Below, in pieces: positions 4,317-32,895 of a DNA stretch of 64,000 nucleotides. Source of the stretch: Synechococcales cyanobacterium GL140_1_metabinner_5_sub (lineage in GTDB: Bacteria; Cyanobacteriota; Cyanobacteriia; Cyanobacteriales; Chamaesiphonaceae); NCBI GenBank assembly GCA_025359065.1, contig JANYHM010000038.1, positions 124,001-188,000 on the forward strand, given 5' to 3'. Below the pieces are notes generated by a model that searched no databases, was not told where the DNA came from, and saw nothing but the letters and a program-made list of their open reading frames with translations. Made by a program: the position numbers and the translations under genes. How positions within the stretch are numbered: the first letter of the stretch is position 1; each line of letters starts with the position of its first letter.

Positions 4317-5237
4317 TTATTTTTCTGGTGAACCCAAAGTTAACACTGCTTTGATGCGCGGGGTCTTCAGAAATCCTTGGGTGTGGGTGACTAGTTTGTC
4401 GCCCCAAAGATTTTCTTTAAGATAATCAATGCTGGCATAGCGGCTATCATTGCGCAGCGCTGTTTCACCTAACTTGAAAGCTTCCTCTTGTTTGCCCTGC
4501 TGATAAAGTGCAACAGCTAAGGCCAATTGGGGTTCGGCGGCTTTCTTTTCGATCGAAATAGCCTGCTGCCAATATTTGACGGCATTGGGTAAGTTGTTCG
4601 TCTCGTAGCTAATCAAGCCAATGTTGTTCAGCGCTGGCCAGAAGTCTTTTTTCTGCTGTACCGATTTCTCGTAGGTGGTAATGGCCTCTGGATAGCGCTT
4701 ACTGCGATAGTAAGCATTGCCTAAGTCAAATAACCCTGGTACGCTGGTAGGGTTAATTTTCAAACCGGCTTGCAGTTGTTCGATCGCTTGGGGATAAGAA
4801 CCTTTCTGAAAAAAAGCGCTGCCTAAAGACAGTAAGACATTGGCATCTTTGGGCGCGAGAGCCTGAGCTTTTTTGAGAGTTTCGATACTTTTGTCAGACT
4901 TTTGGTTTTGCAGATACAAAGTGCCCAAAAGCAGCAAAATATCCGATCGTTCGGGAGCGAGCTGGTTGGCCAAAACCGCCCGTGGAATAGCCTGCTCATA
5001 GAGCTGAAACTGGGAAAGTCGTAAGGCGCTTTCGTAGAGGCGAGCAGCTTCTCTGGCAAAGTCTTTTTGATTTTGCTGTGAAACATAGGGAAGAATCACT
5101 TGAGAGCTAGCCGGAGCGACAACCCCACAGCTTAACAAAGCCAGCATCACGGCGGTATATTTAACCAATTGTCGGAGAACCACGATGTTTATGTTGGTAG
5201 AGGTATTTGGAGAGAAGACAGCAATATTAGTAGACAC
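4317..5237 (-). CDS. Exported TPR-repeat protein
   Basis: A 306-residue protein. A hydrophobic segment at about residues 27-45 ends in ASSQ, consistent with a signal peptide behind a long basic N-region or with a membrane anchor. Residues about 55-270 hold roughly six tetratricopeptide repeats (for example LGNAYYRSKRYPEAITTYEK), a protein-interaction superhelix. The start is GTG at 5237 with AGGGGA just upstream. No enzymatic domain is visible. It is a monocistronic unit with its own terminator, divergent from the exporter operon. Confidence 0.8.
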   Translation of the reverse strand: MSTNIAVFSPNTSTNINIVVLRQLVKYTAVMLALLSCGVVAPASSQVILPYVSQQNQKDFAREAARLYESALRLSQFQLYEQAIPRAVLANQLAPERSDILLLLGTLYLQNQKSDKSIETLKKAQALAPKDANVLLSLGSAFFQKGSYPQAIEQLQAGLKINPTSVPGLFDLGNAYYRSKRYPEAITTYEKSVQQKKDFWPALNNIGLISYETNNLPNAVKYWQQAISIEKKAAEPQLALAVALYQQGKQEEAFKLGETALRNDSRYASIDYLKENLWGDKLVTHTQGFLKTPRIKAVLTLGSPEK

Positions 5238-5517
5238 TGTTCCCCTGGGAAAATTTTAGCATTGGCCAGCGAAACTCGGGTAGTTGTCCGCAAAGCTGTT
5301 TGATCATGGTACGGAGCAAGATGGGAATGTTAAGATTAATGACTGAACACTTAACGTGTCAGCCAAAATTACAGAAATGATCCCTGATCAGCACATTCCT
5401 CAAAAAATATTTTGAGCCATTCGCGGTCTACCCGATACTCCAAACAAGGGAGCTATTTCTCAGGTTTTTAGTCTACAAATACATCGATCCCCTAAATTTT
5501 CAGTTTCTGCATATCTC

Positions 5518-7119: not shown

Positions 7120-7124
7120 CCATC

Positions 7125-8369
7125 ATGGGTAACGCTCAAGCTCGCAAGGGTGTAGATTTTGGGGAAAGCCTCAAAATGGCCACCACTACGCTGATTGCTA
7201 ACAAGCTGCGCAGTGGTCTCACAATGCTGGGTATTATTATTGGCAATGCCTCGGTAATTGCCATGGTGGGCATTGGTCAAGGCACCCAAAAGCTGGCCGA
7301 AGATCAGTTTAAATCTCTAGGACCAAATACTCTCTTCATTTTGGCCGGTGGACCAAATAGTCAACAAAACCGCTTGGGCTTACCTCGTACTTTGGTCAGC
7401 GCCGATGCTCAGGCCATTAAGCGCCAGGTGCCCAGTGTGGCTGATGTGGCTGCTCAGTTACAGTCCAGTCAGGCGATTACATACGACAATAAAAATAGTA
7501 CTTCCCAGGTGGTTGGTACTACTCCGAGTTTCTTGACCGTGCGCAGTTTTGAAATTGCTAAGGGGCGATTTATTAATGACAACGACTCTAAAAATGCCAA
7601 TTTAGTAGTGGTGTTAGGCCCTGATTTAGCCGAGAAATTATTTGAAGGCCGGGAGGCGATCGGCCAAAAAATTCGGGTAAAAAATATTAGCTTTGAAGTA
7701 GTTGGGATCATGGTAGCTAAGGGTTCGTCTTTTGGTAGTAACCAGGATGATATTGCCTATATGCCATTATCTACCGCTAGTCGGCGCATTGTCGGACGAA
7801 ATTCACCCTTTGGCCAAGAGGTGTCTTTTATTTCGGTTTCGGCCAAGGATGCTGATAGTTTGAGTGCGGCGGAGTTTCAGATTACTAATTTGCTACGTCG
7901 TCGGCACAAAATAGTGAATGACGATGATTTTACAGTGCGCAACCAAAAAGATGCACTACAAATTGTGGGAACTATTACCGGTGGTTTGACGCTGTTACTG
8001 GGGGCGATCGCGGGTATTTCGCTATTAGTCGGCGGCATTGGGGTAATGAATATTATGCTGGTGTCGGTGACAGAGCGAACTCAAGAAATTGGTCTGCGCA
8101 AGGCGATCGGGGCGACCCAAGGAGATATTTTGATACAGTTTATTATTGAGTCGGTAATTCTATCCGCAGCCGGTGGAGTGGTCGGAACTTTGATTGGGAT
8201 TGGTGGAGTGGTGTTGGTGGCGGTGTTTTCGCCGCTGCCTGCTTCGGTGGCTCCGGCTTCGGTCATTATGGCGGTGACGGTTTCGGGGGCGATCGGACTG
8301 TTCTTTGGGGTCGTGCCAGCAAAACGAGCGGCTAGCTTAGACCCGATCGTGGCTCTAAGAAGCGTTTAG
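7125..8369 (+). CDS. MacB/FtsX-family ABC exporter permease
   Basis: A 414-residue permease without a fused ATPase. There is one transmembrane helix at about 30-50, a large periplasmic MacB core domain (about 55-275), then three helices forming the FtsX domain (about 285-410) with the diagnostic GVMNIMLVSVTERTQEIGLRKA(I)GA segment. The start ATG follows AAGGAGAAATAGCCATC, and the ribosome site overlaps the end of the adaptor gene, so the two are probably translationally linked. With the adaptor and ATPase it forms a tripartite exporter like MacAB or the cyanobacterial DevBCA systems. The substrate is unknown. Confidence 0.92.
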   Translation: MGNAQARKGVDFGESLKMATTTLIANKLRSGLTMLGIIIGNASVIAMVGIGQGTQKLAEDQFKSLGPNTLFILAGGPNSQQNRLGLPRTLVSADAQAIKRQVPSVADVAAQLQSSQAITYDNKNSTSQVVGTTPSFLTVRSFEIAKGRFINDNDSKNANLVVVLGPDLAEKLFEGREAIGQKIRVKNISFEVVGIMVAKGSSFGSNQDDIAYMPLSTASRRIVGRNSPFGQEVSFISVSAKDADSLSAAEFQITNLLRRRHKIVNDDDFTVRNQKDALQIVGTITGGLTLLLGAIAGISLLVGGIGVMNIMLVSVTERTQEIGLRKAIGATQGDILIQFIIESVILSAAGGVVGTLIGIGGVVLVAVFSPLPASVAPASVIMAVTVSGAIGLFFGVVPAKRAASLDPIVALRSV

Positions 8370-8460
8370 ATTTGGATCTGATCATCTGCAACTTTGCAGA
8401 AGTAGCTTCCCCATAGGTCTATGAGCAAACTGCGTAACCTTAGCACACATCCTTATTATC

Positions 8461-9219
8461 ATGCTTATTACATCCTCCGCTCCACTAGTAAAAGACAGCT
8501 TCACTAAGCCAGTGATCATCCGCATGGAAGAAGTCTGCAAAAGCTATGGCATGGCCGATACCCTAGTCAAGGCTTTAGATATGGTCAATCTGACGATCGA
8601 AGAAGGAGAATATTGCTCGATCATGGGACCATCTGGATCTGGTAAATCCTCTGCTATGAACATTATTGGCTGCCTCGATCGACCCACCAGCGGCAGATAT
8701 TACTTAGACGAACTAGATGTCTCTACCCTCCCTGATGACAATCTGGCTCAAATGCGCAACCGCAAACTAGGCTTCGTTTTTCAGCAATTCCATTTACTCC
8801 AACAGTCCACCGCCTTAGAGAACGTGATGCTGCCGCTGATCTATGCTGGAGTCCCGGCGAAAGAACGCCAGGATCGCGCAGCCGAAGCCCTAGAGCAAGT
8901 AGGATTAACCAATCGCCGCAACAACCGCCCCAACCAGCTCTCTGGTGGACAACAACAGCGGGTAGCCATTGCTCGGGCGATCGTCGGTAAACCAGTAGTG
9001 CTCCTCGCCGATGAACCCACCGGTGCCCTAGATTCTAAAACCACCCAAGAAGTGATGAATATCTTCACCGAGCTAAACGACAGCGGTATCACGATCGTCA
9101 TGGTCACACACGAACCTGAAGTAGCCCGCCAAACCCGTCGCATCGTTTGGTTCCGAGATGGCCAGGTCATCCACAACAACCTCACTCCCGAAGAAATGAA
9201 TCAAGTAGCTTTGGGCTAA
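8461..9219 (+). CDS. ABC exporter ATP-binding protein (MacB/LolD/DevA type)
   Basis: A 252-residue ATPase with Walker A GPSGSGKSS (56-64), Q-loop FVFQQFHLL, signature LSGGQQQR (about 160-167), Walker B VVLLADEPTGALDS and H-loop VTHE. The LADEPTGALDS form is typical of ATPases that energise MacB/LolCDE/FtsX-type mechanotransmission exporters. It lies 91 bp downstream of the permease. ATG 8461 gives a 21-residue extension before the conserved start (MEEVCKSYG), so ATG 8524 is a possible alternative. Confidence 0.93.
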   Translation: MLITSSAPLVKDSFTKPVIIRMEEVCKSYGMADTLVKALDMVNLTIEEGEYCSIMGPSGSGKSSAMNIIGCLDRPTSGRYYLDELDVSTLPDDNLAQMRNRKLGFVFQQFHLLQQSTALENVMLPLIYAGVPAKERQDRAAEALEQVGLTNRRNNRPNQLSGGQQQRVAIARAIVGKPVVLLADEPTGALDSKTTQEVMNIFTELNDSGITIVMVTHEPEVARQTRRIVWFRDGQVIHNNLTPEEMNQVALG

Positions 9220-9222
9220 TTT

Positions 9223-11748
9223 CTAGAAATCAAGAATCTCAGATTGATATTGATTAACATAGTCTTCTACCTGCTGTTGGTAGGCCAACAGATTACTTTC
9301 CGCCCACTCCCGATCGTCGCTATTTACATAAATATGGACAAATGGCTCACCCGCATCGGGCAAAATCAGCACCCAGTTATCATTATGAGAACTATAGATT
9401 TTCACCCCATCCTCAGTATCTAACTTCTCACTTTGGTGCATTTCTAACATGTGACGCATCAAGCCACCCTTGACCCCCCACGGGCATCGCACACTATGTA
9501 GCAAATGAAAAACTCGTGGCAACTGCTGACGAATTTTACTCAAAGGGCGATTTTCTCTGGCCAGCATTTCAATCAGCTTCGCCACACAAAACATCGCATC
9601 AAAACCGGCGTGCAGCTCCGGAAAAATAAAGCCCATATCGCCACTGCCACCCAAAACTACATGGGGTAACTTCTGACAAGCCTCCATTAAATCTGTAGGG
9701 TTGGACTTGGTTCGTTTAATTCCACCACCATGACGACGAACCAACTCATCCACCGCACTACTGGCCTGTACTGGCACCACTATCGTCCCCCCTGGATGAG
9801 CCTTTAGAGAAAGATGCACCATCAATGCCGTCATCATTTCATCCCGAATAATATAGCCAGATTCATCCACTAAAGTTAACTGCTCACCATGAGCCGAAAC
9901 CTGTACTCCAAAAGTAGCCATCAGGGCTTCCACCACCCGCCCAAGCTGGTTGAGCAAAGCTTCTCGCTCGGAGCTGTTGGGAGCAGTCTGACTGAGGCTG
10001 GCATTTAGCACCACCGCATCCACACCAAATTTAGATAGTAACAGGGGCAACACGGCTCCCGAAACCGCGTAAGCATAGTCAATAACTACTCGCCCAGTGC
10101 CTCGAATTGAATGCAGGTTCAGATGGCGCTGGAAAGCGCTGTTATATAGCTCAATTCCTTGAATATGGCTGATCTTGCCGATTTCCGAAATACTCGATCG
10201 ACGTAAATCTTCCTTAAAATAAGCCGACTCGATCTTTTTCTCTTGGGCTTTGGAGATATTGATGCCTCGATCGTCGAAAAACTCAATTAACAAATACCCA
10301 GGCCGATCGGGATGCAAACGAACATGCAAACCACCAGATACCGAGAGAGTTGGAATAATCAGCCGTGATACCGGAATCGCCGTAGCATCCAGATCCTGAA
10401 CATTAATTCCTACCGACATCAACCCGGCTTCCAGAGACCGAGCCACCATCCGCGAAATACTACGCTGGTCACGAGAAACCGTAACCTGCATCCCCATTTT
10501 TAGGGTGGAACCATATGCTGCCCCTAGTTTGACTGCAAACTCTGGAGTGATGTCAATATTCGCTAAACCCTGCACCCCCCGCTGGGAAAATAGATTTCGT
10601 CGCGCCACATCGCCCCAAATTAAGTTGAGGGTGACAGTCGCCAGTGGTTCAATTTCTTTATTCGGCCAGACCCGCACATTGCTGTTTATCTGAGATTCTT
10701 CTCCCACCCGTGACATCGAGCCAACTACTGCTCCTTCTAACAACTGTGCCCGCTGTCCCACTCTCACACCGCGACCAACTATACAGCCGCGCAACTGGGC
10801 TTCTTCGCCAATCACGGCACCATTCCAAACCAATGGACGCTTCAAGTTGGCATCGGCACCGATCGTCACGTTGTGACCAATCACCGTCCCAGCCGTAATA
10901 TTCACCCTGGCTCCAATCCGGCAGTTATTGCCGATTACTGCTGGGCTAGCAATAGTTGCGGTAGGGTCAATAGTGGTATCGTGACCCACCCAAATGCCCG
11001 GTTTGATTTGTTCCGAAATGGGCAATATGCTGGGCAACCGATCGAGCGCATCGTACTGCACCTGGCGATAGGTATCTAGTTGACCCACATCACACCAGTA
11101 TCCATCGGCTACATACCCATAAATAGCAGCTTTTTGGGCTAGCAGCAGCGGCAGCAAATCTTGAGCTACGTCAAACTCTTGATCTGGTGGAATATGTTGC
11201 AGCACTTCGGGTTCAAAGATATAAATGCCAGTGTTAACAGTGTCTGAAAAAACTTCGCCCGCCGTGGGTTTTTCTAAGAATTTCTGCACCTTGCCATTTT
11301 GGTCGGCAATGACTACCCCAAAATCTGCGGGGTTGGGTACCGAAGTTAGCACCATGGTTACTTGGGCTTTTTTGGCTCGATGAAAGGCGATCGCCGCACT
11401 CAAATCAAAATCAGTAATACTATCACCGCTGATGACCAAAAAAGTCCGGTCTAACAATTCCCCCACATACTTAATCGAACCAGCAGTCCCCAGAGCCTGT
11501 TCTTCTTCGATCGAGTAGTGAATCGACACATCCCAGTCTTGACCATCCCGGAAATATTGCTGGATGGCCTCTGGCTGGTAATGCAGGGTAATAATGATTT
11601 CTTCGATACCGTGCTGTTTTAGCAAGCCAATAATATGCTCGGCGATCGGGCGATTCAACACCGGCACCATAGGTTTTGGCAATTCGCAGGTGAGCGGACG
11701 CAAGCGCGTTCCTGATCCGCCTGCCATTAGTACTGCGCGTAATTCCAT
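9223..11748 (-). CDS. Mannose-1-phosphate guanylyltransferase with degenerate phosphomannomutase domain
   Basis: An 841-residue three-domain protein. Residues 1-235 are a nucleotidyltransferase with the GGSGTRLRPLT loop and LPKPM, predicted to make GDP-mannose (or a related NDP-sugar) for glycans. Residues about 250-370 are hexapeptide repeats forming a left-handed beta-helix. Residues about 380-800 align with phosphohexomutases, but the phosphoserine loop expected as TASHNP reads VRLHPDRP. The metal loop expected as DGDGDR reads SAHGEQ, while the flanking scaffold (LVDESGYIIRDEMM) is kept. The mutase part is therefore probably catalytically dead and structural or regulatory. The architecture matches a cyanobacterial family annotated as mannose-1-phosphate guanyltransferase. 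It ends 3 bp from the convergent ATPase gene. Confidence 0.9.
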   Translation of the reverse strand: MELRAVLMAGGSGTRLRPLTCELPKPMVPVLNRPIAEHIIGLLKQHGIEEIIITLHYQPEAIQQYFRDGQDWDVSIHYSIEEEQALGTAGSIKYVGELLDRTFLVISGDSITDFDLSAAIAFHRAKKAQVTMVLTSVPNPADFGVVIADQNGKVQKFLEKPTAGEVFSDTVNTGIYIFEPEVLQHIPPDQEFDVAQDLLPLLLAQKAAIYGYVADGYWCDVGQLDTYRQVQYDALDRLPSILPISEQIKPGIWVGHDTTIDPTATIASPAVIGNNCRIGARVNITAGTVIGHNVTIGADANLKRPLVWNGAVIGEEAQLRGCIVGRGVRVGQRAQLLEGAVVGSMSRVGEESQINSNVRVWPNKEIEPLATVTLNLIWGDVARRNLFSQRGVQGLANIDITPEFAVKLGAAYGSTLKMGMQVTVSRDQRSISRMVARSLEAGLMSVGINVQDLDATAIPVSRLIIPTLSVSGGLHVRLHPDRPGYLLIEFFDDRGINISKAQEKKIESAYFKEDLRRSSISEIGKISHIQGIELYNSAFQRHLNLHSIRGTGRVVIDYAYAVSGAVLPLLLSKFGVDAVVLNASLSQTAPNSSEREALLNQLGRVVEALMATFGVQVSAHGEQLTLVDESGYIIRDEMMTALMVHLSLKAHPGGTIVVPVQASSAVDELVRRHGGGIKRTKSNPTDLMEACQKLPHVVLGGSGDMGFIFPELHAGFDAMFCVAKLIEMLARENRPLSKIRQQLPRVFHLLHSVRCPWGVKGGLMRHMLEMHQSEKLDTEDGVKIYSSHNDNWVLILPDAGEPFVHIYVNSDDREWAESNLLAYQQQVEDYVNQYQSEILDF

Positions 11749-20141: not shown

Positions 20142-23100
20142 TTAGGATTTTACTTTCACCTTGAACTTAATAGAGCCATAAGCTCCGCCCAAAATTGGAT
20201 TGCTGCTATTGGCAGCATTTACGACTACAGTGTTGGTTGATTGATTGGCGGTGGTATTGCTGACCAAGTTGCAGTCGGTGGGGCTGGTGTTAGAGTATTC
20301 TCCTCGATCGTCCCCAATTGTATTGGTAAGATATGTGCTGGTACTACCACTGGGGCTGAGCAAAATGCCTTTACCCACATTAGAGCTATTGAAATTCAAG
20401 ACAAAATCCAGATTTTTGTTCAAGGCATCACAGACTTTAGTTTGGCCTATGCGGTTTTCGCCAGCGTTAAGGTAGTAAATAGCGTATTCAATTTCATCAC
20501 CCGGACGTACTTGGCCAGGATTAATCTCTCCTAATAGATAGTTAGTAGGCCAGCCTGGATCATTATCCTTAGTAGATCCAGATTCATGGATATAGCTGTT
20601 ATATGTGGTTAATCCGTTAGATGAAGCAATGGCGGTGATTCGCTTCACTAAAATTAAGTTGGCACGGCTGCTGGGGCTAGCGCCGAATTCTGAGGTGCTG
20701 TCATTGCTATTGGTAGCCGTGGCAGTAATATTGGTAGCGGCGGCTAAGCCGAGGGTGCCAGCATTGCTAAAAATACAGGGATTAGTGGTGTTACCAAAAA
20801 TGCCGTTGGCATCAGTAGTACATGAGCCAATATAGGTTTTGCCTTCTCCGTGAGGCTTAGATCTGGTATCTCCGAGAACCACTTCGCCATTTTGATCGGC
20901 GGGAGTATTGTCAGCAATAAAAAATTCTAGAGTGAGGTTGCCAAATGCTGTATTGCCAGCCGGATCATTGCCCACATAGCCTTTGGCTGTGAGTGTGCCG
21001 CCACTCAAGGTGGCCGAAGTAATTAGGGGGTAATCTAAATCCTGATTGCTCGCGGTAGATAAGGTGCCATTGTTTGGGGTAATGCCATTGGCAGTATTGC
21101 CGAGATCGATGCCTACACCGACGTTACCGAAGATGGAGTTTTGGGTTATTTTGTTTTTTTGCTTGCCTGCTTCGATCGCTACTCCATAACCACCCAAAGA
21201 ATTACTTACTGTGTTTCCTGAAATAGTTACAGCCGTTTGCTGCGAATCAATGCCTCGGCGGTTTTGATTTAAGATGTTCTTGTCGATTTTAATTCCTTGC
21301 AAATCGCTGGTGCCAATAGCTTGGAGTAAAATCCCGAAGCCGCTGACATTACCAGCTCCATTCCGCAGAATAGAATTATTTTGTACCAAGAAATTGCTGC
21401 TGGTGCCACTGATAGCAGGTCGAATCGCAATACCAGAATCGGCTTGAGAATCGGTTAACAGATTGCGAGTGATCGAGATGTTTCCAATAGTGTTAGGGAA
21501 AAGTTCGATCGCGCTATGTTGACCAATAGTTCCACTCAGGTTTCCAGGCCGCTTGATTTCGTTTTCGCGAATGACTAAACCCGAGAGATCAACAGGTGTT
21601 CGGCCTCCTAAGATACCGCGTTCATTGGTGAAGCCAATAATATTGTTAGTAATAGTGGTGTTGGTAGAGCCGTTGATTACAATGCCAGATTGGGATTGAT
21701 TGGCAGTGGGTGCTGTGAAACTATTAGCTGTAAAGCCGATCACATTTTGAGTGACTAACGGATTTGCAGCTTGGAGTAAAATATCGCCTTGGTTATTGCC
21801 AACTGTGCCAAAACCATGAATGGCAATGCTTTGGATGGTGACATTTGCCCCATTAACGATGATGCCATGAATGACACTGCCACTATTAATGAGTTCTACT
21901 TCAGGAGCATTTAGTTGGACTAGAGACAGGTTGTCTACTCCGACTACGCCTCCGCTGCCGAGAGTTAAACTATTACTATTGCCTACATTAGTTGTTTGGG
22001 TACGACCATCGATCGAGGTATCTGTATCACTAATGGTAAGAGGTGAAGCTAAACTAATCAATGCTCGACCAGCAGTCAACTGATTTACAACGCCAGACCT
22101 TAGACCACCTGGCGGTGAACCACTGGGGAGGGGAATCATGAAGATGGAAACTTCTTTGCCGCTCAGTTGACCGACTTGTGCCAAATTATTATTATTCAGA
22201 GCATTGCTGTTAGCGATAAATTGTCGCAGAGAGCCTTGGCCAGTATCGTTAGTATTAACAATTGTATCAAAGTTGTAGCCGAAGTCTAGGTTGCTGACAT
22301 TGTTTGTCCCAGAAGCTACTGCGGCAATCGACTGAGCTTGACCGGTCAAGTTGCCACTAAATAATCCGGTAGAACTCATAATAGTGCCACTACTACCACT
22401 GACTGCATCTGCAACGCTGGGTTTTTCACCTCCTACTCTATTTGCATCACCTACAGATGCACCAGTAGTTGCATCGCTCCGAAAGGTTTGGATAGGTAAT
22501 AGACCAGCCGTAGGAGTATTTAATAAACGATTGGAGGCGATTGTACTGTTTGCAATTCTAACATAATAGGTAACACTAGTAGGTAGATTGTTGAATTGAT
22601 ATGCACCATTGTTATCAGTGTTACTACTGGCAACAAAATTTCCGCCAGTATCGTATAGTTCAACGCGAGCGTTGGCAACAGGAGTGCCGCTACTAAAGCT
22701 ACGGCCGGCACCGCCACCATAGTTGATATCCTCAAAAATGCGACCTTTGATTTGACGAATATCATCTTCTTGTACAACTACCGGTACACTTGTGCGAGCA
22801 GTTTCACACGCACTGGAGCCAATTAAAATAGTTCCACTACCACCTCCGGTAGCATTTGTGAGCGAAAAACCTACATTATCATTGGGTTGATAAGCTAAAT
22901 CCCCAAAATCGATCGGGATATGAATATATTTACTGGTATTGTTGGGGTCATAATCTCCTATTGGTAGGGTAAGTGTAATGTTAGAACCACTTTTGCTAGC
23001 ACTAAGACCACTTGCCGTTGCAGCACCTTGCAAGGGGGTTCCGACCGTAAAGTTTCTGGATGTCATAAGTCCAGTAAGTGTAATTGTTACTGTTGCCGCA

Positions 23101-23927
23101 GATTTCAACCGACCATTTAATCGAAGACTGAGATAGTAAGGGCTACCACCATCCCCCTCTATTGTAGTAGATAAGTTGACTTTATTAGTCACATCTGTTG
23201 GTAAAAAGTCGATCACTGGTGGGAGACTTAATGTCACATCGTCCAAAAAATTTCCATAGGAAATATTTCTAGTAGTGCCTACTACGGATCCTTGAATTGC
23301 ATTGAAGGCAAAGCGTAACCGAGCACTAGTTTGACTATGAGTATAAGCACCAGTTTTTTGCTGCCAACCTTCATTAAAAGAAGTTGCGAGATCAGGACTG
23401 CTATATAACAGTGTACTGGGAGGAGTTTTGCCAGTCCATAGAGTCGGATCAGATACCGTGACTCGCATAATATTGATATCATTGGCAACTGATGCCTTGC
23501 GTACAGCATGAAGTAGGCTCCAATTAACTGTCTCATCTTTCAAAACGCAGATATCTTGGTATATGGCAGAATTGCTGGCGGCATTTAATTCGACATGCTG
23601 GCCACTATGATTACTTGGACTCTGTCCATTGTTTGTTCCATTCCAATATTCCAAACTGTTGGCGTAAGGAGAGGTATCTTCTGTAGTTTGCCAAACTGTT
23701 GGGGGTGTATTTCCATAGCCTTCGGTGATGGCGACTCCTATGCCACTGACCACTGGTTGTTCAAAGCCTGGATTAGCAATAATACGAGATGGGATGAGCG
23801 GACTGGGGGTAGTCGGGGTTGGTAAGGCTAATACTCTTTTGGCCAGTCCTGCAACTAAAAATAGGTATAAAGTGGTTACAACGCCAATTGAGCGAGCGAT
23901 TATTAAATATCGTGAATTACGCTCCAC
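20142..23927 (-). CDS. Giant exported surface protein 1 (beta-helix, B-type and shared C-terminal domains)
   Basis: A 1261-residue protein. A hydrophobic export signal lies at about residues 15-35. Residues about 45-210 resemble a carbohydrate-binding or jelly-roll module (IIANPGFEQPVV opening, DDVTLSLP ending). A Calx-beta-like region follows, and then a Cna/SdrD B-type domain from about 395 (GRIFEDINYGGGAGR, NNGAYQFNNLP). From about 549 (GYNFDTIVNTNDTGQGSLRQ) there is a right-handed beta-helix of repeated N-x-I turns, followed from about 1090 by a domain shared with the two neighbouring paralogs (NLILVKRITAI, RPGDEIEYAIYYLNAG, ending YGSIKFKVKVKS). The GTG start has GGAGAG six bases upstream. 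It is probably an adhesin or outer-surface polymer; the ligand is unknown. Confidence 0.85.
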   Translation of the reverse strand: MERNSRYLIIARSIGVVTTLYLFLVAGLAKRVLALPTPTTPSPLIPSRIIANPGFEQPVVSGIGVAITEGYGNTPPTVWQTTEDTSPYANSLEYWNGTNNGQSPSNHSGQHVELNAASNSAIYQDICVLKDETVNWSLLHAVRKASVANDINIMRVTVSDPTLWTGKTPPSTLLYSSPDLATSFNEGWQQKTGAYTHSQTSARLRFAFNAIQGSVVGTTRNISYGNFLDDVTLSLPPVIDFLPTDVTNKVNLSTTIEGDGGSPYYLSLRLNGRLKSAATVTITLTGLMTSRNFTVGTPLQGAATASGLSASKSGSNITLTLPIGDYDPNNTSKYIHIPIDFGDLAYQPNDNVGFSLTNATGGGSGTILIGSSACETARTSVPVVVQEDDIRQIKGRIFEDINYGGGAGRSFSSGTPVANARVELYDTGGNFVASSNTDNNGAYQFNNLPTSVTYYVRIANSTIASNRLLNTPTAGLLPIQTFRSDATTGASVGDANRVGGEKPSVADAVSGSSGTIMSSTGLFSGNLTGQAQSIAAVASGTNNVSNLDFGYNFDTIVNTNDTGQGSLRQFIANSNALNNNNLAQVGQLSGKEVSIFMIPLPSGSPPGGLRSGVVNQLTAGRALISLASPLTISDTDTSIDGRTQTTNVGNSNSLTLGSGGVVGVDNLSLVQLNAPEVELINSGSVIHGIIVNGANVTIQSIAIHGFGTVGNNQGDILLQAANPLVTQNVIGFTANSFTAPTANQSQSGIVINGSTNTTITNNIIGFTNERGILGGRTPVDLSGLVIRENEIKRPGNLSGTIGQHSAIELFPNTIGNISITRNLLTDSQADSGIAIRPAISGTSSNFLVQNNSILRNGAGNVSGFGILLQAIGTSDLQGIKIDKNILNQNRRGIDSQQTAVTISGNTVSNSLGGYGVAIEAGKQKNKITQNSIFGNVGVGIDLGNTANGITPNNGTLSTASNQDLDYPLITSATLSGGTLTAKGYVGNDPAGNTAFGNLTLEFFIADNTPADQNGEVVLGDTRSKPHGEGKTYIGSCTTDANGIFGNTTNPCIFSNAGTLGLAAATNITATATNSNDSTSEFGASPSSRANLILVKRITAIASSNGLTTYNSYIHESGSTKDNDPGWPTNYLLGEINPGQVRPGDEIEYAIYYLNAGENRIGQTKVCDALNKNLDFVLNFNSSNVGKGILLSPSGSTSTYLTNTIGDDRGEYSNTSPTDCNLVSNTTANQSTNTVVVNAANSSNPILGGAYGSIKFKVKVKS

Positions 23928-24010
23928 AAATAGCTCTCCATCTTAGTCTATATTAACCACTTTAGCTTACCCAATCATTTCATAGAAATAACATTTTTGA
24001 TAAGCGTAAA

Positions 24011-24077
24011 ATAAAGCTGGCTTTCGCATTGGTAGAGTTCAATTAATGTTCCCTAAGAACGGATCGCCAGCTTTTTA
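24011..24077 (-). terminator. Terminator of giant surface protein 2
   Basis: AAAGCTGGC (24013-24021) pairs with GCCAGCTTT (24066-24074) around a long loop. On the minus strand it is followed by ATTTTA. It lies directly after the stop of the gene ending at 24078, so the paralogs are probably transcribed separately. Confidence 0.6.
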
Positions 24078-27000
24078 TTAATTAACTCGGGTGCGGAAAC
24101 GCATGAAGCCGTAGGGTTTATCGTTCAGGGTGGCGTTAACGGGGTTTACTATCGTACCCAGATCGACCACCACTGCACCATTAGTATTGATAGGAATCGC
24201 AGTAGTCGGTGATGGCCGACAAGCATTAGGTAAGATACTTCCCGGTGGATAGTAGCGGGCAGTATCTCCATCATTGAGATTAGTGTAAGATTTAATTTGG
24301 TCATTAACCTGGGCGACAATTCCCCGATCGCCACCTGCACTGCCAGCAGCCGGGGTCATAATCGGTAATATTCCTGACCACATGGCGATCGAAGGTACAA
24401 AAGTTTGTTTTTCTGGAATTAAGTCACAAATACTCACGTTGTTGGCGGCACTATCACCATTTGATAAGAAATAAATTGTGTATTCCAGCATGTCACCTGG
24501 TCGCACATTGCCTCCATCGGTACCACCAACTAAGAAAGTTGCTGGGTTTGGCCATTGGTCAGTATCTGGGGGAGAAATTGCTGGTACTGATAGAACATTG
24601 TCATCATAAGGATTGTTTGGTTCATCATAGTAGCTAGATAGATTTTGACCATTGAGGGTAGCAGTAGAACCATTGATATTAGTAATACGTTTTACTAGTA
24701 ACACATTGGGGTTGTTCAGCGCTACGCTGCTAAACTCTGAGGTGTTGCCACTACTATCGGTGGCGGTGGCAGTAATGCCGATCGCATTGGTAATATTGCT
24801 AGGAAAGCTGCAATTAAATAATCCAGTGGTACTGGCGTTACAGCTACCAATATAAGTGCGGCCCTCACCGTGGGCTTTGTTTTTGCCGTCACCTAACAAT
24901 ACTTCGCCATTTTGATTGGCTGGGGTATTGTCAGCAACAAAAAATTCTAACTTATTGGCAGCAAAGGTAGTGCTACCATTGGGTTGATTGCCGATAAAGC
25001 CTTTCACGGTCAGAGCGCCACCGTTAACCCGAGAAGAAGTAATCACTGGGTAGTCAGTGCCAATATTAGGAATAGCTGGGTCGGTAGCACCATTGTTGGC
25101 GGTAACACCGTTACCCAATAGCCAGCTCCGAGGATCAATGTCAATTCCTAAGCCCGCGTTGCCATAAATGCTGTTTTCGGAGATGGTGTTATGGATCGGA
25201 GCAATTGTAGTGGTTGCTGGTAAGACGCTGCTGCTAGCGCTTAGTAAAATTCCTGCTCCAGCGTATGGTGTGCTGCTTACTGGATTGGTGTTTTTGATGA
25301 TGTTACGGAAGATGGTGTTATCGGAAGCGTTGTTATATAAGCCAATCCCGGCAGTAGAAGAACCATCGATCGTGTTGTTTTTGATCGAGTTACCACTCGT
25401 AGAAGCAGCGAGGGTGCTAACTAATTCAATGCCCTTGCCACTATCTAAAGTGTTACTGCTCACCCCGCGAGTATTGGCAATTAGGTTGCCTTCTACAGTG
25501 GCATTAGAAGTGCTCCATAGAGCAACACTATCACCTTCGGCTGATTTTTGACCGCTGCCAGGAGCGGTGTTAGGGCCATTGGCTTGGTATTCGTTACCAG
25601 TAATTTTAGAACCATTGGCACCAGCACCATATAAGAGTGTGCCATAGCCGTTGTAGGCAATGAAGTTATTCTTGACTTCGCAGGAAGCAAAGCAGATTGT
25701 GCCATAGCGTTGATTTTGTAACGAGGCTCCAGGATCTGATCCGTCAGCAAAAGTCCCAATTAAGTTCTGTTCAATAATTGCCGCGCCTGCTGGTGAGACA
25801 TTGCTACCGGTACTGCTGCCGACTCTGACCGCTCCACTATCACCGCCCGCCGCAGTAGCATAGTTACCTTTGGTACCGTAGACTGCAATGCCTTTTAGAA
25901 TGGCATTATCGGCGTTAAGGGTAATGGCATATTGATCGGCATTGGTTGAGTCAGTTAAATTGCGACCATCAATGACAATCTCTGGCCGATCGGTCTTGGT
26001 CACTGTTTGGTTACTAATTCCTACGCCCACACCGCTACCAACCTGACCAGAATTAGAGTTACCAATATTGGTAGTTTGGGTAAAACCACTAATGGTCGTA
26101 TTGCTATCAGTTACCGCATCTAGAGGTGATGCCAGGGTAATTACTGCTGCTCCATTGTTATTGGCGGTGCCTGCAACTTGATTGACCAAACCGGCTCTTT
26201 GACCAGCATTGCTGCTGCCGTTGGGAATCATAAAGATGCTGACTTCTTTGCCACTGGTTTGTCCCACTTGTTGGAGGTTTGTGTTGGGTAAACTATTACT
26301 GTTTAAAATAAACTGGCGGAGAGAGCCTTGTCCAGCATTATTAGTGTTGACGATCGTATCAAAGTTATAGCCAAAATCTAGATTGGTGACTGGCAGATTA
26401 GCTACTTTTACTTTGGTCAAAGATTCGATATATTCGCCAGCTACTGCATTGCCACCTGCTGTGGTGAATTTGCCACTACTAGGATTAAAGATTGCACCAG
26501 TGCCAGCCTTGCCAGCATCAACTTGGCTGGGCATTTCGCCCCCAACTTTGTTGAGGATATCTGTGACAGTGTTGGCTGTTACGCCCGCATCGGTAATAAA
26601 GGTTTGGACTGGTAATAATCCGCTGTTGGTGGTAGAACGAGTAGATTTGACGGTGTTGTTGACGGTACGGACATAAAAATCACCTACTGGTACACCAGGG
26701 AAATTGTAGTTGCCACCGCCAGTGGTTGTGGTCGATCGAATAAATTTGCCAGTGCTATCATAGAGTTCGACAGTAGCTCCATCAATTCCGACACCATTAG
26801 AGGCAGTCTTTGTGCGGCCAGCACCGCCACCATAATTAATATCTTCAAAGACGTTGCCTGAAATATCGTTACCTAAGACTAATGCCGAACCGATCGCACT
26901 GGCTTCGCGGGTACTGTTAGCCGGGGAACCAACCACTTCTTGACTACCAGAAGGTGTTCCAGTCGCAGCAGGGTCAGCATTGTCTAAGGTATAGACATCG

Positions 27001-27776
27001 GTGCTGCTGTTGTTAAGATAAGGCTGGTTTTGGAGTCGATCTTTGGGATTGGAACTAGAAGTTACATCTTCGGGACTGTTACCCAGTAACACGGTAACAT
27101 TTGTGCCAGCATTAGCCGTAATTGTTACTGGTACTCGTACCTTAATAGTGCCACCAGCATTTACTGAGCCGCCGTTAGCTCCGATTGTGGTGCTTAATAA
27201 AGCACCAGTGCTGTTAGTAGCAGCAGTAAAAATTGCTGGTACATTTATGGGGGCGGGGTTGCTACCTACACCATCAAATACTAAGCTGTTATAGCCAATA
27301 ATTTGTAATTGACCGACTGTACCACCACCGGTAACAGTTGCCGTGCTAGGAATCACAAACTTGGTGGGATCGTTACCAACGTTGGTAATAGTGAAATCGA
27401 AATAAACTACATCGCCAGTATGAATGCCCGGAGCATTTTGATAAAGTCCGGCACCGGCTACGTTACTGGGGGCATCTACCGGAATAGCTGCTCCCACCGT
27501 GATGCCAGCTACTTCAGCGACGGTGAGGGTTACAATGTTAGAGACTACGCCTTCTTCGGTGTTGGTCAAATCATCGCCATCAATAAAGGTACCAGTGGCC
27601 TGGTTATCGATTATTGTTCCACCTGCTGGAGATGCGGCAATGAGTGGTAATACATATAGTGCATTGCCGGTGGCAGCTAGCCCGAAAATCAGCGCCAGTT
27701 TGACCCAAGATTGTGTCTTAGAGGTGGCGCTTTTTTGACCTAGATGTTTGATGGCGATCGGGCGAGATTTCAACAT
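24078..27776 (-). CDS. Giant exported surface protein 2 (paralog of protein 1)
   Basis: A 1232-residue protein with an N-terminal membrane/signal segment at about 26-48. Next comes a DUF11-like beta-sandwich region (about 55-260), then a B-type domain from about 309 (GNVFEDINYGGGAGR) and the segment GYNFDTIVNTNNAGQGSLRQ at about 472. A right-handed beta-helix covers about 600-930, and the shared C-terminal domain runs from about 1029 (VLLVKRITNI, RPGDMLEYTIYFLSNG, ending YGFMRFRTRVN). The B-domain to beta-helix part is close to protein 1 at protein level and visibly similar at DNA level, indicating a tandem duplication. The N-terminal modules differ, so domains have been exchanged. No enzymatic motif is seen. 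Confidence 0.85.
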   Translation of the reverse strand: MLKSRPIAIKHLGQKSATSKTQSWVKLALIFGLAATGNALYVLPLIAASPAGGTIIDNQATGTFIDGDDLTNTEEGVVSNIVTLTVAEVAGITVGAAIPVDAPSNVAGAGLYQNAPGIHTGDVVYFDFTITNVGNDPTKFVIPSTATVTGGGTVGQLQIIGYNSLVFDGVGSNPAPINVPAIFTAATNSTGALLSTTIGANGGSVNAGGTIKVRVPVTITANAGTNVTVLLGNSPEDVTSSSNPKDRLQNQPYLNNSSTDVYTLDNADPAATGTPSGSQEVVGSPANSTREASAIGSALVLGNDISGNVFEDINYGGGAGRTKTASNGVGIDGATVELYDSTGKFIRSTTTTGGGNYNFPGVPVGDFYVRTVNNTVKSTRSTTNSGLLPVQTFITDAGVTANTVTDILNKVGGEMPSQVDAGKAGTGAIFNPSSGKFTTAGGNAVAGEYIESLTKVKVANLPVTNLDFGYNFDTIVNTNNAGQGSLRQFILNSNSLPNTNLQQVGQTSGKEVSIFMIPNGSSNAGQRAGLVNQVAGTANNNGAAVITLASPLDAVTDSNTTISGFTQTTNIGNSNSGQVGSGVGVGISNQTVTKTDRPEIVIDGRNLTDSTNADQYAITLNADNAILKGIAVYGTKGNYATAAGGDSGAVRVGSSTGSNVSPAGAAIIEQNLIGTFADGSDPGASLQNQRYGTICFASCEVKNNFIAYNGYGTLLYGAGANGSKITGNEYQANGPNTAPGSGQKSAEGDSVALWSTSNATVEGNLIANTRGVSSNTLDSGKGIELVSTLAASTSGNSIKNNTIDGSSTAGIGLYNNASDNTIFRNIIKNTNPVSSTPYAGAGILLSASSSVLPATTTIAPIHNTISENSIYGNAGLGIDIDPRSWLLGNGVTANNGATDPAIPNIGTDYPVITSSRVNGGALTVKGFIGNQPNGSTTFAANKLEFFVADNTPANQNGEVLLGDGKNKAHGEGRTYIGSCNASTTGLFNCSFPSNITNAIGITATATDSSGNTSEFSSVALNNPNVLLVKRITNINGSTATLNGQNLSSYYDEPNNPYDDNVLSVPAISPPDTDQWPNPATFLVGGTDGGNVRPGDMLEYTIYFLSNGDSAANNVSICDLIPEKQTFVPSIAMWSGILPIMTPAAGSAGGDRGIVAQVNDQIKSYTNLNDGDTARYYPPGSILPNACRPSPTTAIPINTNGAVVVDLGTIVNPVNATLNDKPYGFMRFRTRVN

Positions 27777-27936
27777 AATCGGTGCAGCGGCGTGACGGAG
27801 GAGCTAGGTGAATTGGTAGATGGGGTGAATGAAACTACTCTGATATAGTCAATATACCCAAATTAATATTGATCGAGGTCAGTATATTCTCTAGCATATT
27901 TTTTGGCACTATTAATGATGCTAGAGTCTATCTGTG

Positions 27937-30900
27937 TTAATTGACTTTGGCTTTAAAACGAATATATCCGTAGGAAGTAGTTGGCGTGCCAGCACTAGTG
28001 GAGTTCATCAGTGGAGAGGTGGTGGTGCCGACATCGACAACAACCACCTTATTAGATAAGTTGCTGCCCACTCTGGCTCCAAGATTGCAGCTAGTAGCTA
28101 AAGATGGGGTGGTTAATTGGCCATTATCAGTATCGACTCCAGTATTAGTGAGATACTGAACAGAGCTATTTCCTGCTGCCAAAGCTAAACCTTTACCGAC
28201 AGTAGTCACATTGCTGCTATCAAATTGTGTTTGAAAAGTAAGATTGGCATCTAATTGATCACAAATTTTGGCTTGTTTGGCAGGGTTGCCACCTCCATTG
28301 AGGTAATAAATCGTATATTCAATCTCGTCTCCAGTTTGAACATCAGGCAAAAATGTTTTACCTACAGTGTAAGTATTGGTGCAAGCACCTGCTGATCCAG
28401 TAGAACCTGGCCAGTTACAGTGGTTGTCATCACTAGTTGTAGTCGCAGAGCTTGAGTCATCCACAAAAGTTGTAAAGTTTTCTGGTACAGTTTGGTTGTT
28501 TCTTTTAATCGCGGTGATTCGTTTTACTAGCAGTAATTTAGCTTTGTTTACACCTGTACACGTTTGGTCATCAGCTACTGCTGTAGTAGTAGGGTCATCT
28601 GAAACAATTCCAACCGGTAAGCTACCATCATAAAAAAAGTTTGATTGGTTACATACTTTAGTGCCTACCGCATTTACCTTAACCCGAAAAACAACAGTTG
28701 CTTTTCTAGCTGCACCAGTAGTCAATACTCCACTAGCTTCACCAGGGCTATTGATTAGCTTAGGATTAACTGTGTTGGAGTAAGGCATGGCACCAGAGTT
28801 ATCAGCTTTAGCTATACCATTAAGTGTAGTAGAACCTGCTACATAAGTGGTGCCTGTTGGGATAGTATCTATGAGGGTGGTGTTACCAGCAACCAAGTTA
28901 CCATTATTAGTGACATTAAGCGTATATTCTAAAATATCGTTAGCGCTGAGGATGTTAGTCCCAGGATTAGTAATGTTAGCCACTGTTTTGATGAATGCAC
29001 CGGTAGGGTTCAAATCGGGATATGTACAACTCCCTAAATCGGCGGAACCAGGAGTTGTAAGAGGAAGAGATGTAACTACGTTTGTACCTAAATTCCAACC
29101 AAAAGACTTGCCACCACTGCCTTGCATATAAAGTGTGTTGTCACTTGCTTGGAAAGCCAAGCCCGCTACAGGGTCTGTGGATGCTGCTTTGCCGAGTAGT
29201 ATAGCAGTTGGGGTCGAACTCTGAGGATTAATGATTTGAAAAAGGCGGAATTCGGTTGGGACATTAGAGTTATTGGAGTCATAAGTCACAATATACATGC
29301 GACCAGCATTATCAAAGGCAATATCTCCACCGCCCGACTGACCTACTTGAGCACGACCAAAGTTACCAATATCATTATTGGGATTATCTGTGATGGTATT
29401 TGCAGCAGAGAGGAAGCCGCTTGTGCCTGAACGATTTGGGCTAAAGCGGTAAAATGTTTTTTGACCATCGGCAACGTACAAGGTGCCATCTGGTGCAAAA
29501 CCCATGCGGTTGAATGAATTGGTCAAAGACCCAGCCGAGCCATCAGAGCGCACGATGCTTATAGGAGAATAAGGGACTGTCAATGCTATGCCAGTATCGG
29601 TGATATTAGAACCGTTGTAGTAGAATAGTTTGGCACCAGTCCCTGTATTCTCCATATAATAAACGCGCCGATTGCCGCTGCTATCCAGTAGCGGATCAAC
29701 AGCGAGTGCTGCAACGGCAGTTGTAGTGCCTCCTGTAGTTGTCAAAGTAGCAATCTGTGTTGCAGGAGTTCCATCTGGTGGACTATAGCTTCTAAGACTG
29801 TTGAAAGTTCCACTATTGTTGTAAGAGCCATAAATAGTTCCGCAAGCCAAGACAGCAGCCCCGATCGATACCTGATAATCTTCAACTTCTCCGTCGGTAG
29901 CAATTCCATTGGGGGTACTTGCTGTGACTGTGGCATCATTGGTAAAGCGGAAACGGGCGAAAGTATTTCCGGCACTAGCCGTAATTCCTGTCCAGTCGAG
30001 AGAACCAGCGGGTGTATTATTTGTAATCGCAATGCTGGTATATTCTCCGATCTCAAACGTACCATTTTTATTGAAATCGATCCAGGCGTGCAGTGTACCC
30101 GTTCCGGTTGCGGTGATACTGGCAGCGGGGATGGTGTAGCTGGTTGCTCCAGCAGTCAAAGGAGGAAAGCTGGTGATACCATCATCACCTGTATCACCAT
30201 TAGCCTGAACACTATTATAGTCTGTGCCTTCTGCCGTTACTGTTGCACCTAAATATGTACCGCTAACAATCGAATGTGAGGCAGATCCATAGCTACTGGG
30301 TGCATCTCCAAAGTCTCGGCCAGCAACAACGTTTACACTAGTTGGATCAATGTTTGTGGTTTGGGCTTGCACAACGCTGCCTGCTGGGACAGTAATCCCG
30401 GCTGGGACTGAACTGGTGTTATCAACATTATCGCTTGAGGAGCCAGTTCCTGTAATACTAGAGCCAGTAGCGTTAGATTGGTTATTTAGTGCTCCGGTAA
30501 ATCCACTGTTGACAACAGTAGGAATATTAACTGTAACAACTCCACCTGGAGCCAGAATACTGCCCGTGTCCAATAGATTGCTGGTATTGACTCCAGTATA
30601 TGCGATGTTTTTGGTTGCACTAGTACCAGACCCCGATACAACGACTGTTTGGCCACCAGTACTAGAAACCGTCACACCACTTGGTAATTCATCATTAATT
30701 TGGAAATTGTTGGCAGGTACTGCTGAGAAGTTTTTGTAAGAAATTGTCCAAGTGACAGTATCACCGGGTGTAATAGTGCCACTACCATCAGCATCAATAG
30801 TAAGCTTTGCAGATTTATAGCCATTAACCGTGCTGATAGTAGTGGCTGCTGGAGTGGTGTTGGTAGTAGGGCCATCAAGGTATACGATTGTACCTTGGTT

Positions 30901-32160
30901 AGTAACACTAGTCGGCACATTTGTGGTATTGATAGTTACTTTAAAAGTAATAGTTGCTCGGTTAGAATACCCCACTTTCAATGCTCCAGCAGATGAAGTA
31001 CGCCCATTGATTCTAGTAACAGTGGCAAAAGGATAAGTTGCTCCTGAAATAGGAAGTCCATTGAGAGTGGCACTGTTGGCTACATACGTCGTGGCAGCGG
31101 GTAATACGTCGGTGAAATCTAAGTTTACGGCTGGAGCAGTACCAGTATTTTCAACTTCGATCGTATAGGTTAGAGTATCACCAGGTCTTGCTAAGCCGTT
31201 GGGGCTAACTGATTTAGTGGCAGTAACAATAGGAGCAATGTTCGGTTGACTGCCACTTGCCATATCTGTAATAAATCCCCCAGCAAGAGTAGACCCCACC
31301 TGTACCGCCGTAGCATCATTGACATTCACTCTATAAATATTGGTTCCCTGGAAAACATTAGCAACTGCATCGATGCCAGCGATATACAGATCACCCGCTG
31401 CATCGAAGGCAATGCTCCCGACAATTACACCAGTGCCAGCTGCATTTGAAACTGGCAGCGCAACACCTCCGACAGTAATTTGACCGATTGGAATAGCTTG
31501 TCGGACTCCACTATTTAGATTGATGCGATACAATGAGTTGCCAAAAATTGCCCAGCCAAACCCATAGCCATCAAAAGCAATATCTCCACTACTCGTGGAA
31601 CCTGATGGCGATGTTCCCTGAAAAGTCATCAGACCTAATGAATTAATTGTGGAAGTAGGGCTACCTGTAGTAAAAGTGTACATTGTATTGTCGTTAGCAA
31701 CGCCATACCCAACACCTCCCCGAAATCCCATTCTGACCATAGGAATACTTCCACTACTACCGGCAAAGGTGCCAAGAGATCCTGATTGATTAGTTCCGTC
31801 ATAACGCCTTAAATTGTTTGGAGTTAGTGTTCGATCAGAATAATACAATTGGAGGTTAACTGGATCAAGTCCTAGTGCCGCTGTGTTAGCCACTCCTGTC
31901 GTGAATAAGAGTGGGGATAAGACCCCACTGGGGCTGATAGTTCTAACCTGATTGATGGCACTAGAATTAGTTGAATAATTAACATATATATCTGTATTAT
32001 TCAGCGGTGCAGCAGTGGCTCCGCGAGCTATTAGTCCGATCGAACTGCCAATAATAGCACCACTTAATAATAAAGTTGTAAATAACTGAGAAGCTGTTCG
32101 ATCGCAGAGTACATCATTAGAAGAATCAAGTTGGCGCAGGAATGACAGAAAAGATTTCAT
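27937..32160 (-). CDS. Giant exported surface protein 3 (propeller-like, DUF11, GEVED)
   Basis: About 1407 residues. A hydrophobic export segment ends GATAAPL. A propeller-like region follows (DIYVNYSTNSSAINQV, LGLDPVNLQLYYSD), then two DUF11-type repeats (RPGDTLTYTIEVENTG and TPGDTVTWTISYKN), and a GEVED domain at roughly 610-765 (GDAPSSYG, LHAWIDFNKNGTFEIGEY, DGEVEDYQVS). A second propeller-like copy, another DUF11 repeat, and the shared C-terminal domain (LLLVKRITAI, GDEIEYTIYYLNGG, ending YGYIRFKAKVN) complete it. A GTG at 32202 would add 14 residues; neither start has a clear ribosome site, so the ATG ending at 32160 is preferred. Confidence 0.82.
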   Translation of the reverse strand: MKSFLSFLRQLDSSNDVLCDRTASQLFTTLLLSGAIIGSSIGLIARGATAAPLNNTDIYVNYSTNSSAINQVRTISPSGVLSPLLFTTGVANTAALGLDPVNLQLYYSDRTLTPNNLRRYDGTNQSGSLGTFAGSSGSIPMVRMGFRGGVGYGVANDNTMYTFTTGSPTSTINSLGLMTFQGTSPSGSTSSGDIAFDGYGFGWAIFGNSLYRINLNSGVRQAIPIGQITVGGVALPVSNAAGTGVIVGSIAFDAAGDLYIAGIDAVANVFQGTNIYRVNVNDATAVQVGSTLAGGFITDMASGSQPNIAPIVTATKSVSPNGLARPGDTLTYTIEVENTGTAPAVNLDFTDVLPAATTYVANSATLNGLPISGATYPFATVTRINGRTSSAGALKVGYSNRATITFKVTINTTNVPTSVTNQGTIVYLDGPTTNTTPAATTISTVNGYKSAKLTIDADGSGTITPGDTVTWTISYKNFSAVPANNFQINDELPSGVTVSSTGGQTVVVSGSGTSATKNIAYTGVNTSNLLDTGSILAPGGVVTVNIPTVVNSGFTGALNNQSNATGSSITGTGSSSDNVDNTSSVPAGITVPAGSVVQAQTTNIDPTSVNVVAGRDFGDAPSSYGSASHSIVSGTYLGATVTAEGTDYNSVQANGDTGDDGITSFPPLTAGATSYTIPAASITATGTGTLHAWIDFNKNGTFEIGEYTSIAITNNTPAGSLDWTGITASAGNTFARFRFTNDATVTASTPNGIATDGEVEDYQVSIGAAVLACGTIYGSYNNSGTFNSLRSYSPPDGTPATQIATLTTTGGTTTAVAALAVDPLLDSSGNRRVYYMENTGTGAKLFYYNGSNITDTGIALTVPYSPISIVRSDGSAGSLTNSFNRMGFAPDGTLYVADGQKTFYRFSPNRSGTSGFLSAANTITDNPNNDIGNFGRAQVGQSGGGDIAFDNAGRMYIVTYDSNNSNVPTEFRLFQIINPQSSTPTAILLGKAASTDPVAGLAFQASDNTLYMQGSGGKSFGWNLGTNVVTSLPLTTPGSADLGSCTYPDLNPTGAFIKTVANITNPGTNILSANDILEYTLNVTNNGNLVAGNTTLIDTIPTGTTYVAGSTTLNGIAKADNSGAMPYSNTVNPKLINSPGEASGVLTTGAARKATVVFRVKVNAVGTKVCNQSNFFYDGSLPVGIVSDDPTTTAVADDQTCTGVNKAKLLLVKRITAIKRNNQTVPENFTTFVDDSSSATTTSDDNHCNWPGSTGSAGACTNTYTVGKTFLPDVQTGDEIEYTIYYLNGGGNPAKQAKICDQLDANLTFQTQFDSSNVTTVGKGLALAAGNSSVQYLTNTGVDTDNGQLTTPSLATSCNLGARVGSNLSNKVVVVDVGTTTSPLMNSTSAGTPTTSYGYIRFKAKVN

Positions 32161-32895
32161 AGCGATCAGGAGTAATACATGAGAGTGATTAACTATTAGC
32201 ACCGTAGAACGGCCAAGATGATACTGGATATATTCCGATCAAAGCCTGACCGTACCTAGTGCGTAGATCACATTTGGTTTTAATCAACAGCAGTTAAAGC
32301 TCCACTTTCATAAAAATAAAAGCACAGGTCTAAATACTGATTATTACCATAATGCCCAATATGTTAGGCAAATTCATAGTAGAATTACCGAAATATCGAA
32401 TGATGAAAATACCTAGATACTGATTGGCCTAGGCATTTTAGACATTATTTGTCTGACAAGATCTAAATCACAGCGCTCACTAAAAAACTCACTAAAAAAG
32501 TGGGCTTAACTTGCAATATTCCGTAAATTTTGCATTTATTTTCTCAGCAAAAATCAACATTGCCTAGTTTAGCTTGGCGATTTAAGTTACTAACTTAAAT
32601 AACTGATTCTTCATTCCGCTCGGAGCTTTTCATCCTGCTGGTATTATGACTATTAGTTCTCCGTTGGCTGTCAACTCAAGTCTCATTTCTGGGTTGTCTT
32701 GACGCAGTTGCTCAAAATCTTCATGAGTAAGCCGCAGAGTGATGTGGCTGATGTCAACTAACAGCGGTTTGGTTTTAGAGATTGCATAATTATTATTTTT
32801 TGCTAATTCCCACTTTCTTCTTTAAATCTAACGTGAAATGTGCCAAAAACCGAGATAATAATAGGCATGGTACTCCAGTCAAAATAATTTTAACC
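32161..32895. other. About 735 bp without an intact gene
   Basis: Contains the upstream region of giant protein 3, AT-rich DNA and the Uma2 remnant. An open frame upstream of 32896 in frame with the DUF456 gene is not coding-like. No RNA gene or clear promoter was identified. Confidence 0.5.
32582..32776 (-). pseudogene. Uma2-family (DUF820) endonuclease remnant
   Basis: The minus strand encodes KPLLVDISHITLRLTHEDF followed by EQLRQDNPEMRLELTANGEL and IVIIPAG, which is the typical N-terminus of Uma2 proteins common in cyanobacteria. A TGA at 32630-32632 interrupts it, and the frame continues KAPSGMKNQLFKLVT to a second stop. The remaining two thirds, including the catalytic PD-(D/E)XK core, are missing, and no start codon is present in frame. 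It is a decayed fragment. Confidence 0.7.

Follow-up and report, generated by a model that had tools for sequence, protein, structure and literature searches.

A strictly C-terminal Ig-like domain of cyanobacterial surface proteins occurs with a predicted giant barrel, a candidate docking and sorting partner

Surface display of giant proteins by cyanobacteria has, to our knowledge, been little described beyond type I secretion and pili. The closest described systems each resemble part of the arrangement reported here. In type IX secretion, varied Sec-exported cargo ends in an Ig-like domain of type A or B, and the SprA translocon is a very large barrel. SlpA of Deinococcus is a large barrel of the outer membrane with a link to the cell wall, and the intimins and invasins (inverse autotransporters) join Ig-like domains to a barrel. 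DUF11 domains, renamed CLIPPER, build adhesin stalks, and a Lys-Asp-Asn isopeptide triad has been described for them (PMC12617251). Here we describe a cyanobacterial domain, CT, that ends giant surface proteins, and a predicted barrel protein, OMP, with which it occurs. We propose, at a probability of roughly 0.57, that CT is the C-terminal docking or sorting domain of a Sec-dependent surface-protein system built round OMP; no published description of such a system was found in the open-access literature searched.

The window, by which we mean the whole 64,000-nucleotide stretch of DNA that was analysed, contains three giant ORFs on the minus strand with one common C-terminal module (Table 1). 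This had been noted in the first-pass annotation, and both the coordinates and the common module were confirmed: the CT of protein 3 aligns over its full length with those of protein 1 (39% identity, E=7e-35) and protein 2 (29% identity, E=3e-17), a likeness that, judged from these alignments, is far above chance. All three modules start with L/I/V-LVKRIT and end with YG(S/F/Y)(I/M)(K/R)F(K/R)x(K/R)V at or adjoining the stop codon, and the (R)PGD motif that had also been ascribed to each of them does not hold for the third, which reads QTGD. A fourth copy forms the end of a 1176-aa ORF on another contig (C73) of the same genome. The cargo had been called otherwise unlike, which is true of protein 3, whose cargo is unrelated to that of the other two, and not of proteins 1 and 2, which have ~790 aa of SdrD_B-like and beta-helix sequence in common (39% identity) and differ mainly at the N-terminus. 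Because of this common beta-helix middle, the window holds two independent cargo types rather than three. By Pfam and NCBIfam models, proteins 1 and 2 have a beta-helix together with SdrD_B and CarboxypepD_reg-like domains, and protein 3 has DUF11 repeats and GEVED. In the window, sites resembling promoters and terminators exceeded those in shuffled sequence by at most about one standard deviation.

Table 1. Giant surface proteins of the window with their terminal domains, and distant relatives of OMP in other records
Feature	Coordinates	Strand	Length	Parts or remarks
Giant surface protein 1	20142..23927	-	1261 aa	Sec-type leader; N-terminus (jelly-roll-like in the first-pass annotation); SdrD_B/CarboxypepD_reg-like domain; right-handed beta-helix; CT domain
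CT domain of protein 1	20145..20657	-		LILVKRIT ... YGSIKFKVKVKS
Giant surface protein 2	24078..27776	-	1232 aa	Sec-type leader; SdrD_B-like domain; beta-helix homologous to that of protein 1; CT domain
CT domain of protein 2	24081..24704	-		VLLVKRIT ... YGFMRFRTRVN; inner part matches TIGR01451
Giant surface protein 3	27937..32202	-	1421 aa	Sec-type leader; regions (propeller-like in the first-pass annotation); DUF11 repeats; GEVED; CT domain
CT domain of protein 3	27940..28536	-		LLLVKRIT ... YGYIRFKAKVN; AlphaFold2 Ig-like sandwich model
Distant OMP relative L154				Acinetobacter plasmid
Distant OMP relative L155				Thermus
Distant OMP relative L156				Roseovarius
Distant OMP relative L158				Deinococcus pMP1

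Scanning of contigs with an alignment of the four CT copies gave 77 loci from the best 80 of 156 matches, all of them cyanobacterial by record title, and CT matches were present in 48 of 386 cyanobacterial genomes. A profile built anew on 131 copies found 155 distinct full-length copies over all the loci retrieved. The domain ended at the last residue of the protein in 116 of these, one residue before it in 30 and two before it in 5, and the remaining 4 lay no more than 13 residues from the stop. No full-length copy among the 155 was internal, as had been anticipated for a sorting or anchoring signal, and the search patterns, being internal to the domain, did not select for a C-terminal position. 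Weak partial matches were mostly internal and reflect the relationship of CT to DUF11. Cargo was surveyed in 54 dissimilar proteins, which were scanned against Pfam with CT taken off. The variety of cargo foreseen in the first-pass annotation was borne out, with 42 Pfam families among the 54 proteins: DUF11 (23 members), GEVED (9), SdrD_B (8), LTD (4) and MG10 (3) were found along with VWA, L-type lectin and P-domain, and other DUF11 domains were missing in 31 of the 54. A Sec-type leader was called in 75 of 96 full-length clients by a simple hydropathy rule, which is crude, on stop-to-stop ORFs.

CT is 171-208 aa long and is an Ig-like derivative of DUF11/CLIPPER (PF01345, TIGR01451), with which it has in common the Ig-like sandwich, a PGDxxxYTIxxxNxG core and candidate Lys-Asp-Asn positions. 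The NCBIfam model for the DUF11-type repeat, TIGR01451, matches the CT of protein 2 over its cut-off (E=2.4e-10), so that the relationship is real; Pfam DUF11 matches the same domain below threshold (15.1 bits vs 24.6). In contrast to the family at large, CT has a long insert, an invariant C92, a near-invariant C150 and a strictly C-terminal position, and it scores under the Pfam thresholds. Across 81 CT sequences, K5, R6, I7, T8, W42, G59, C92, D93 and G190 were invariant, while C150 was found in 80 and N162 in 64. A disulfide may link C92 and C150, and K5, D93 and N162 are, by analogy of position, candidate equivalents of the isopeptide triad. AlphaFold2 modelled the CT of protein 3 as an Ig-like beta-sandwich (pLDDT 92.3, pTM 0.89). 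None of the PDB structures matched this model closely, the weak best matches including Gram-positive pilin Ig domains (FimP, GBS backbone pilin), and no sequence relatives of CT were found in the PDB.

Inspection by eye of the C-terminal 26 residues of sampled CT copies revealed no transmembrane helix and a beta-strand end instead, and CT proteins were rejected as PEP-CTERM or LPXTG sortase substrates on these grounds. They were likewise rejected as type V autotransporters, since CT is an Ig-like domain and not a C-terminal barrel, and as type I (RTX) substrates, since most clients have a Sec-type leader and their C-termini end in the CT strand.

In 39 of the 77 loci drawn from the best 80 of 156 matches, a protein of ~1250 aa, OMP, adjoins the CT gene. 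In the usual operon order, a large DUF11-type protein comes first and a DUF11 protein of 200 aa next, then a DUF11 and SdrD_B protein of 500 aa, OMP, and the CT protein or proteins, with an optional but frequent beta-helix/OmpA protein between OMP and the latter. In the window's genome, the whole OMP operon lies on contig C28, and the genes for the four CT proteins lie on C34 and C73; since the operon is on another contig, these CT genes are dispersed clients. Apart from a Porin_4 stretch, OMP matches no family in Pfam or NCBIfam. Its structural model, of medium confidence (pLDDT 72, pTM 0.51), has two Ig-like domains, then 32 long strands in residues 457-1070 and ~10 more before those, and OMP is thus predicted to combine two Ig-like domains with a very large barrel of 32, and up to ~40, strands. 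Foldseek returned the large barrels SlpA, SprA, MtrB and LptD at low TM (~0.2), which supports the predicted size class and not homology to any export channel; the top PDB match was SlpA of Deinococcus. Unlike SlpA, the OMP of cyanobacteria has Ig-like domains ahead of its barrel, with OmpA modules either fused to it or carried by a partner protein. Ig domains of intimin and InvE were also among the matches, but the Ig domains of OMP precede a far larger barrel than in intimin and invasin, and the cargo is a separate polypeptide. Sequence relatives of OMP in the PDB were confined to a beta-galactosidase Ig stretch and one chance-level match.

OmpA-like domains are fused after the OMP barrel in L123, L124, L134, L136, L139, L140 and L157, in place of, or alongside, the separate beta-helix/OmpA protein. 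The large DUF11-type operon proteins (GIANT family; L113:2064-7679) and the 200-aa DUF11 proteins (D200 family) have terminal strands at the stop, FTFRRKVN and VSYQVKVR, that resemble the end of CT. By this resemblance, the recognised element might be a free last strand in general.

The OMP profile matched in 47 of the 386 genomes. By strict calls, CT and OMP were both present in 43 of 386 genomes and neither occurred alone; the strict lists were drawn up after inspection of both result lists and their exceptions, and Fisher values for the pairing overstate independence, the genomes being related. By lenient calls, both were present in 45 genomes, CT only in 3 and OMP only in 2. As CT-only genomes, G203 and G336 were rejected (partial DUF11 matches), as was G332 (a 183-aa fragment at a contig end). 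G284 was rejected as an OMP-only genome: it has just a 46-codon OMP match with two stops (L120, G284:C1, near 1210746) and no CT genes. Presence varies within genera: for instance, G199, of the same genus as G284, has both genes and G284 neither beyond this remnant, which suggests joint loss of CT and OMP. The deep-branching genomes G035 and G047 are OMP-positive and without a full CT. DUF11 was found in 75 of the 386 genomes, 32 of which have neither CT nor OMP by strict calls. A transporter or protease occurring together with the domain had been expected of a sorting signal, and OMP provides a candidate for the machinery; on the protease side nothing was found, the operon encoding neither protease nor sortase. 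The contrary outcome, in which CT would be equally frequent at internal positions or be an ordinary DUF11 family with no partner, was looked for and was not what we found.

Co-variation was assessed with distance matrices for 66 neighbouring OMP-CT pairs. The distances correlated at 0.62 for OMP-CT, and at 0.30 for OMP-cargo and 0.17 for CT-cargo, where saturation of the cargo distances lowers the values. The OMP-CT correlation was still 0.61 among 1353 comparisons with unrelated cargo. This fits a stable CT with changing cargo around it, and common operon descent can explain part of it. Co-occurrence and co-variation would also be expected of CT proteins that served OMP as structural partners and took no part in export.

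Under the proposed docking and sorting role, cargo would reach the periplasm through Sec, where CT would fold and be recognised by OMP and its periplasmic DUF11/OmpA partners. OMP would release the protein outward, retain its C-terminus at the outer membrane, or do both, and the OmpA module would link the whole to peptidoglycan. Several clients could share one barrel, and the window's genome has its four CT proteins away from the OMP operon. Because the operon encodes no ATPase, protease or sortase, export, if any, would be driven by outside folding or by unlinked factors, and CT would probably be retained rather than cleaved. A stronger form of the proposal is that the giant barrel, together with its Ig, DUF11 and OmpA partners, is an undescribed outer-membrane export system that passes Sec-delivered CT clients to the surface; we hold this form tentatively. 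The interpretation of CT in the first-pass annotation as a sorting or anchoring signal is thus partly supported, by strict position, varied cargo and a co-occurring candidate partner.

About as open as export is the reading that CT is an anchor and not an export signal, such that proteins translocated by a separate general route would dock by CT on an OMP platform, as S-layer proteins do on receptors. We consider it possible, though short of probable; as a narrower form of the docking and sorting proposal, its confidence overlaps with that of the latter. The OmpA modules of the operon, sometimes fused to OMP, point to a platform tied to peptidoglycan, and the top structural match, Deinococcus SlpA, is described in PMC9388160 as a connector of outer membrane and cell wall. 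The operon also encodes no energy source. However, a limited search found no other route with a matching distribution, and a pure anchor would not usually be as large as this barrel is predicted to be.

Capping alone ranks below both export and anchoring, and we regard it as rather doubtful. Here CT would be a DUF11/CLIPPER domain that ends and stabilises an adhesin fibre, export would take another route, and OMP would be a co-inherited part of an adhesin operon. Such a cap is consistent with the derivation of CT from a family that forms adhesin stalks (PMC12617251) and with its invariant Lys and Asp and mostly conserved Asn at candidate triad positions, and a co-inherited operon explains most of the adjacency. 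Yet in 31 of the 54 sampled cargos there is no further DUF11 for CT to cap, CT persists on cargos that are unrelated to one another and follows OMP, and the window's genome encodes its clients on other contigs than the operon. Moreover, other cyanobacterial DUF11 proteins, one of them from the window's genome, lack such a cap. We compared the C-termini of 20 DUF11 proteins from OMP-less genomes and from the window's own genome outside the system (2 of the 20 run off the stretch at one end). The CT strand ended none of the 20; most had no strong hydrophobic (Sec-type) leader and several had RTX motifs. Because these C-termini differ, cyanobacterial DUF11 stalks have various ends, and the CT end goes with OMP. 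The fallback offered in the first-pass annotation, a divergent DUF11 repeat forming the outer end of a fibre, was therefore right as to origin, but CT is probably not merely a fibre end, because most sampled cargos have no other DUF11 repeats and the DUF11 proteins of barrel-less genomes end differently.

RTX/type I-secreted cyanobacterial DUF11 proteins are, like CT clients, giant surface proteins with DUF11 stalk domains; unlike them, they mostly have no Sec-type leader, have RTX motifs in several cases and another C-terminus, and occur in OMP-less genomes and in the window's genome outside the CT-OMP system. A 1577-aa DUF11 protein of the latter genome (L177 on C18, ORF 4955-9685), with no strong hydrophobic leader and a different C-terminus, is apparently a client of another export route.

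That CT is the sorting domain of a cyanobacterial type IX secretion system is very improbable: the logic is the same (Ig-like C-terminal domain, Sec leader, giant barrel) and SprA structures are among the Foldseek matches of OMP (TM ~0.18), but TM-scores are low, CT and OMP have no detectable sequence homology to type IX components, no T9SS gene or sortase was recognised in the operon, whose partners are DUF11, SdrD_B and beta-helix/OmpA proteins, and neither SprA_N (PF14349; a weak search in which no control matched) nor Por_Secre_tail (PF18962; controls matched only below cut-off) was matched in the window's genome.

Relatives of OMP extend beyond cyanobacteria. A tblastn search of OMP against plasmids gave 52 records, and in four inspected non-cyanobacterial records, from Gamma- and Alphaproteobacteria, Thermus and Deinococcus (Table 1), distant relatives lie beside DUF11, SdrD_B or OmpA genes. 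Their annotations read hypothetical, TonB-dependent receptor or DUF11 protein. The Acinetobacter OMP is fused to a D500-like part and followed by an OmpA protein; the protein after that is related over its N-terminal 390 residues to CT clients of cyanobacteria (E=3e-17), but has an ordinary DUF11 strand as its C-terminus. The profile comparison between CT and this C-terminus covered only 37 columns at 5% probability, and CT proper is therefore ascribed here to cyanobacteria and not to proteobacteria. Because the DUF11 neighbours of the distant OMP relatives end in ordinary DUF11 strands, not every member of the OMP family comes with CT. Neither Pfam nor NCBIfam has a name for the barrel, and its plasmid-borne relatives carry other annotations, so the family may be mislabelled. 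That CT predicts a partner barrel across 386 genomes makes the proposed docking and sorting system testable and gives a way to list its clients, and CT is a possible tag for surface display.

Of 13 loci with a REP-type transposase ORF (Y1-like, named by sequence), 11 have it immediately upstream of a CT gene and in the same orientation (L017, L018, L021, L026, L031, L047, L049, L051, L065, L072 and L073; for example L021:5097-5702). The transposase ORF often stands between OMP and CT, and might take part in the exchange of cargo.
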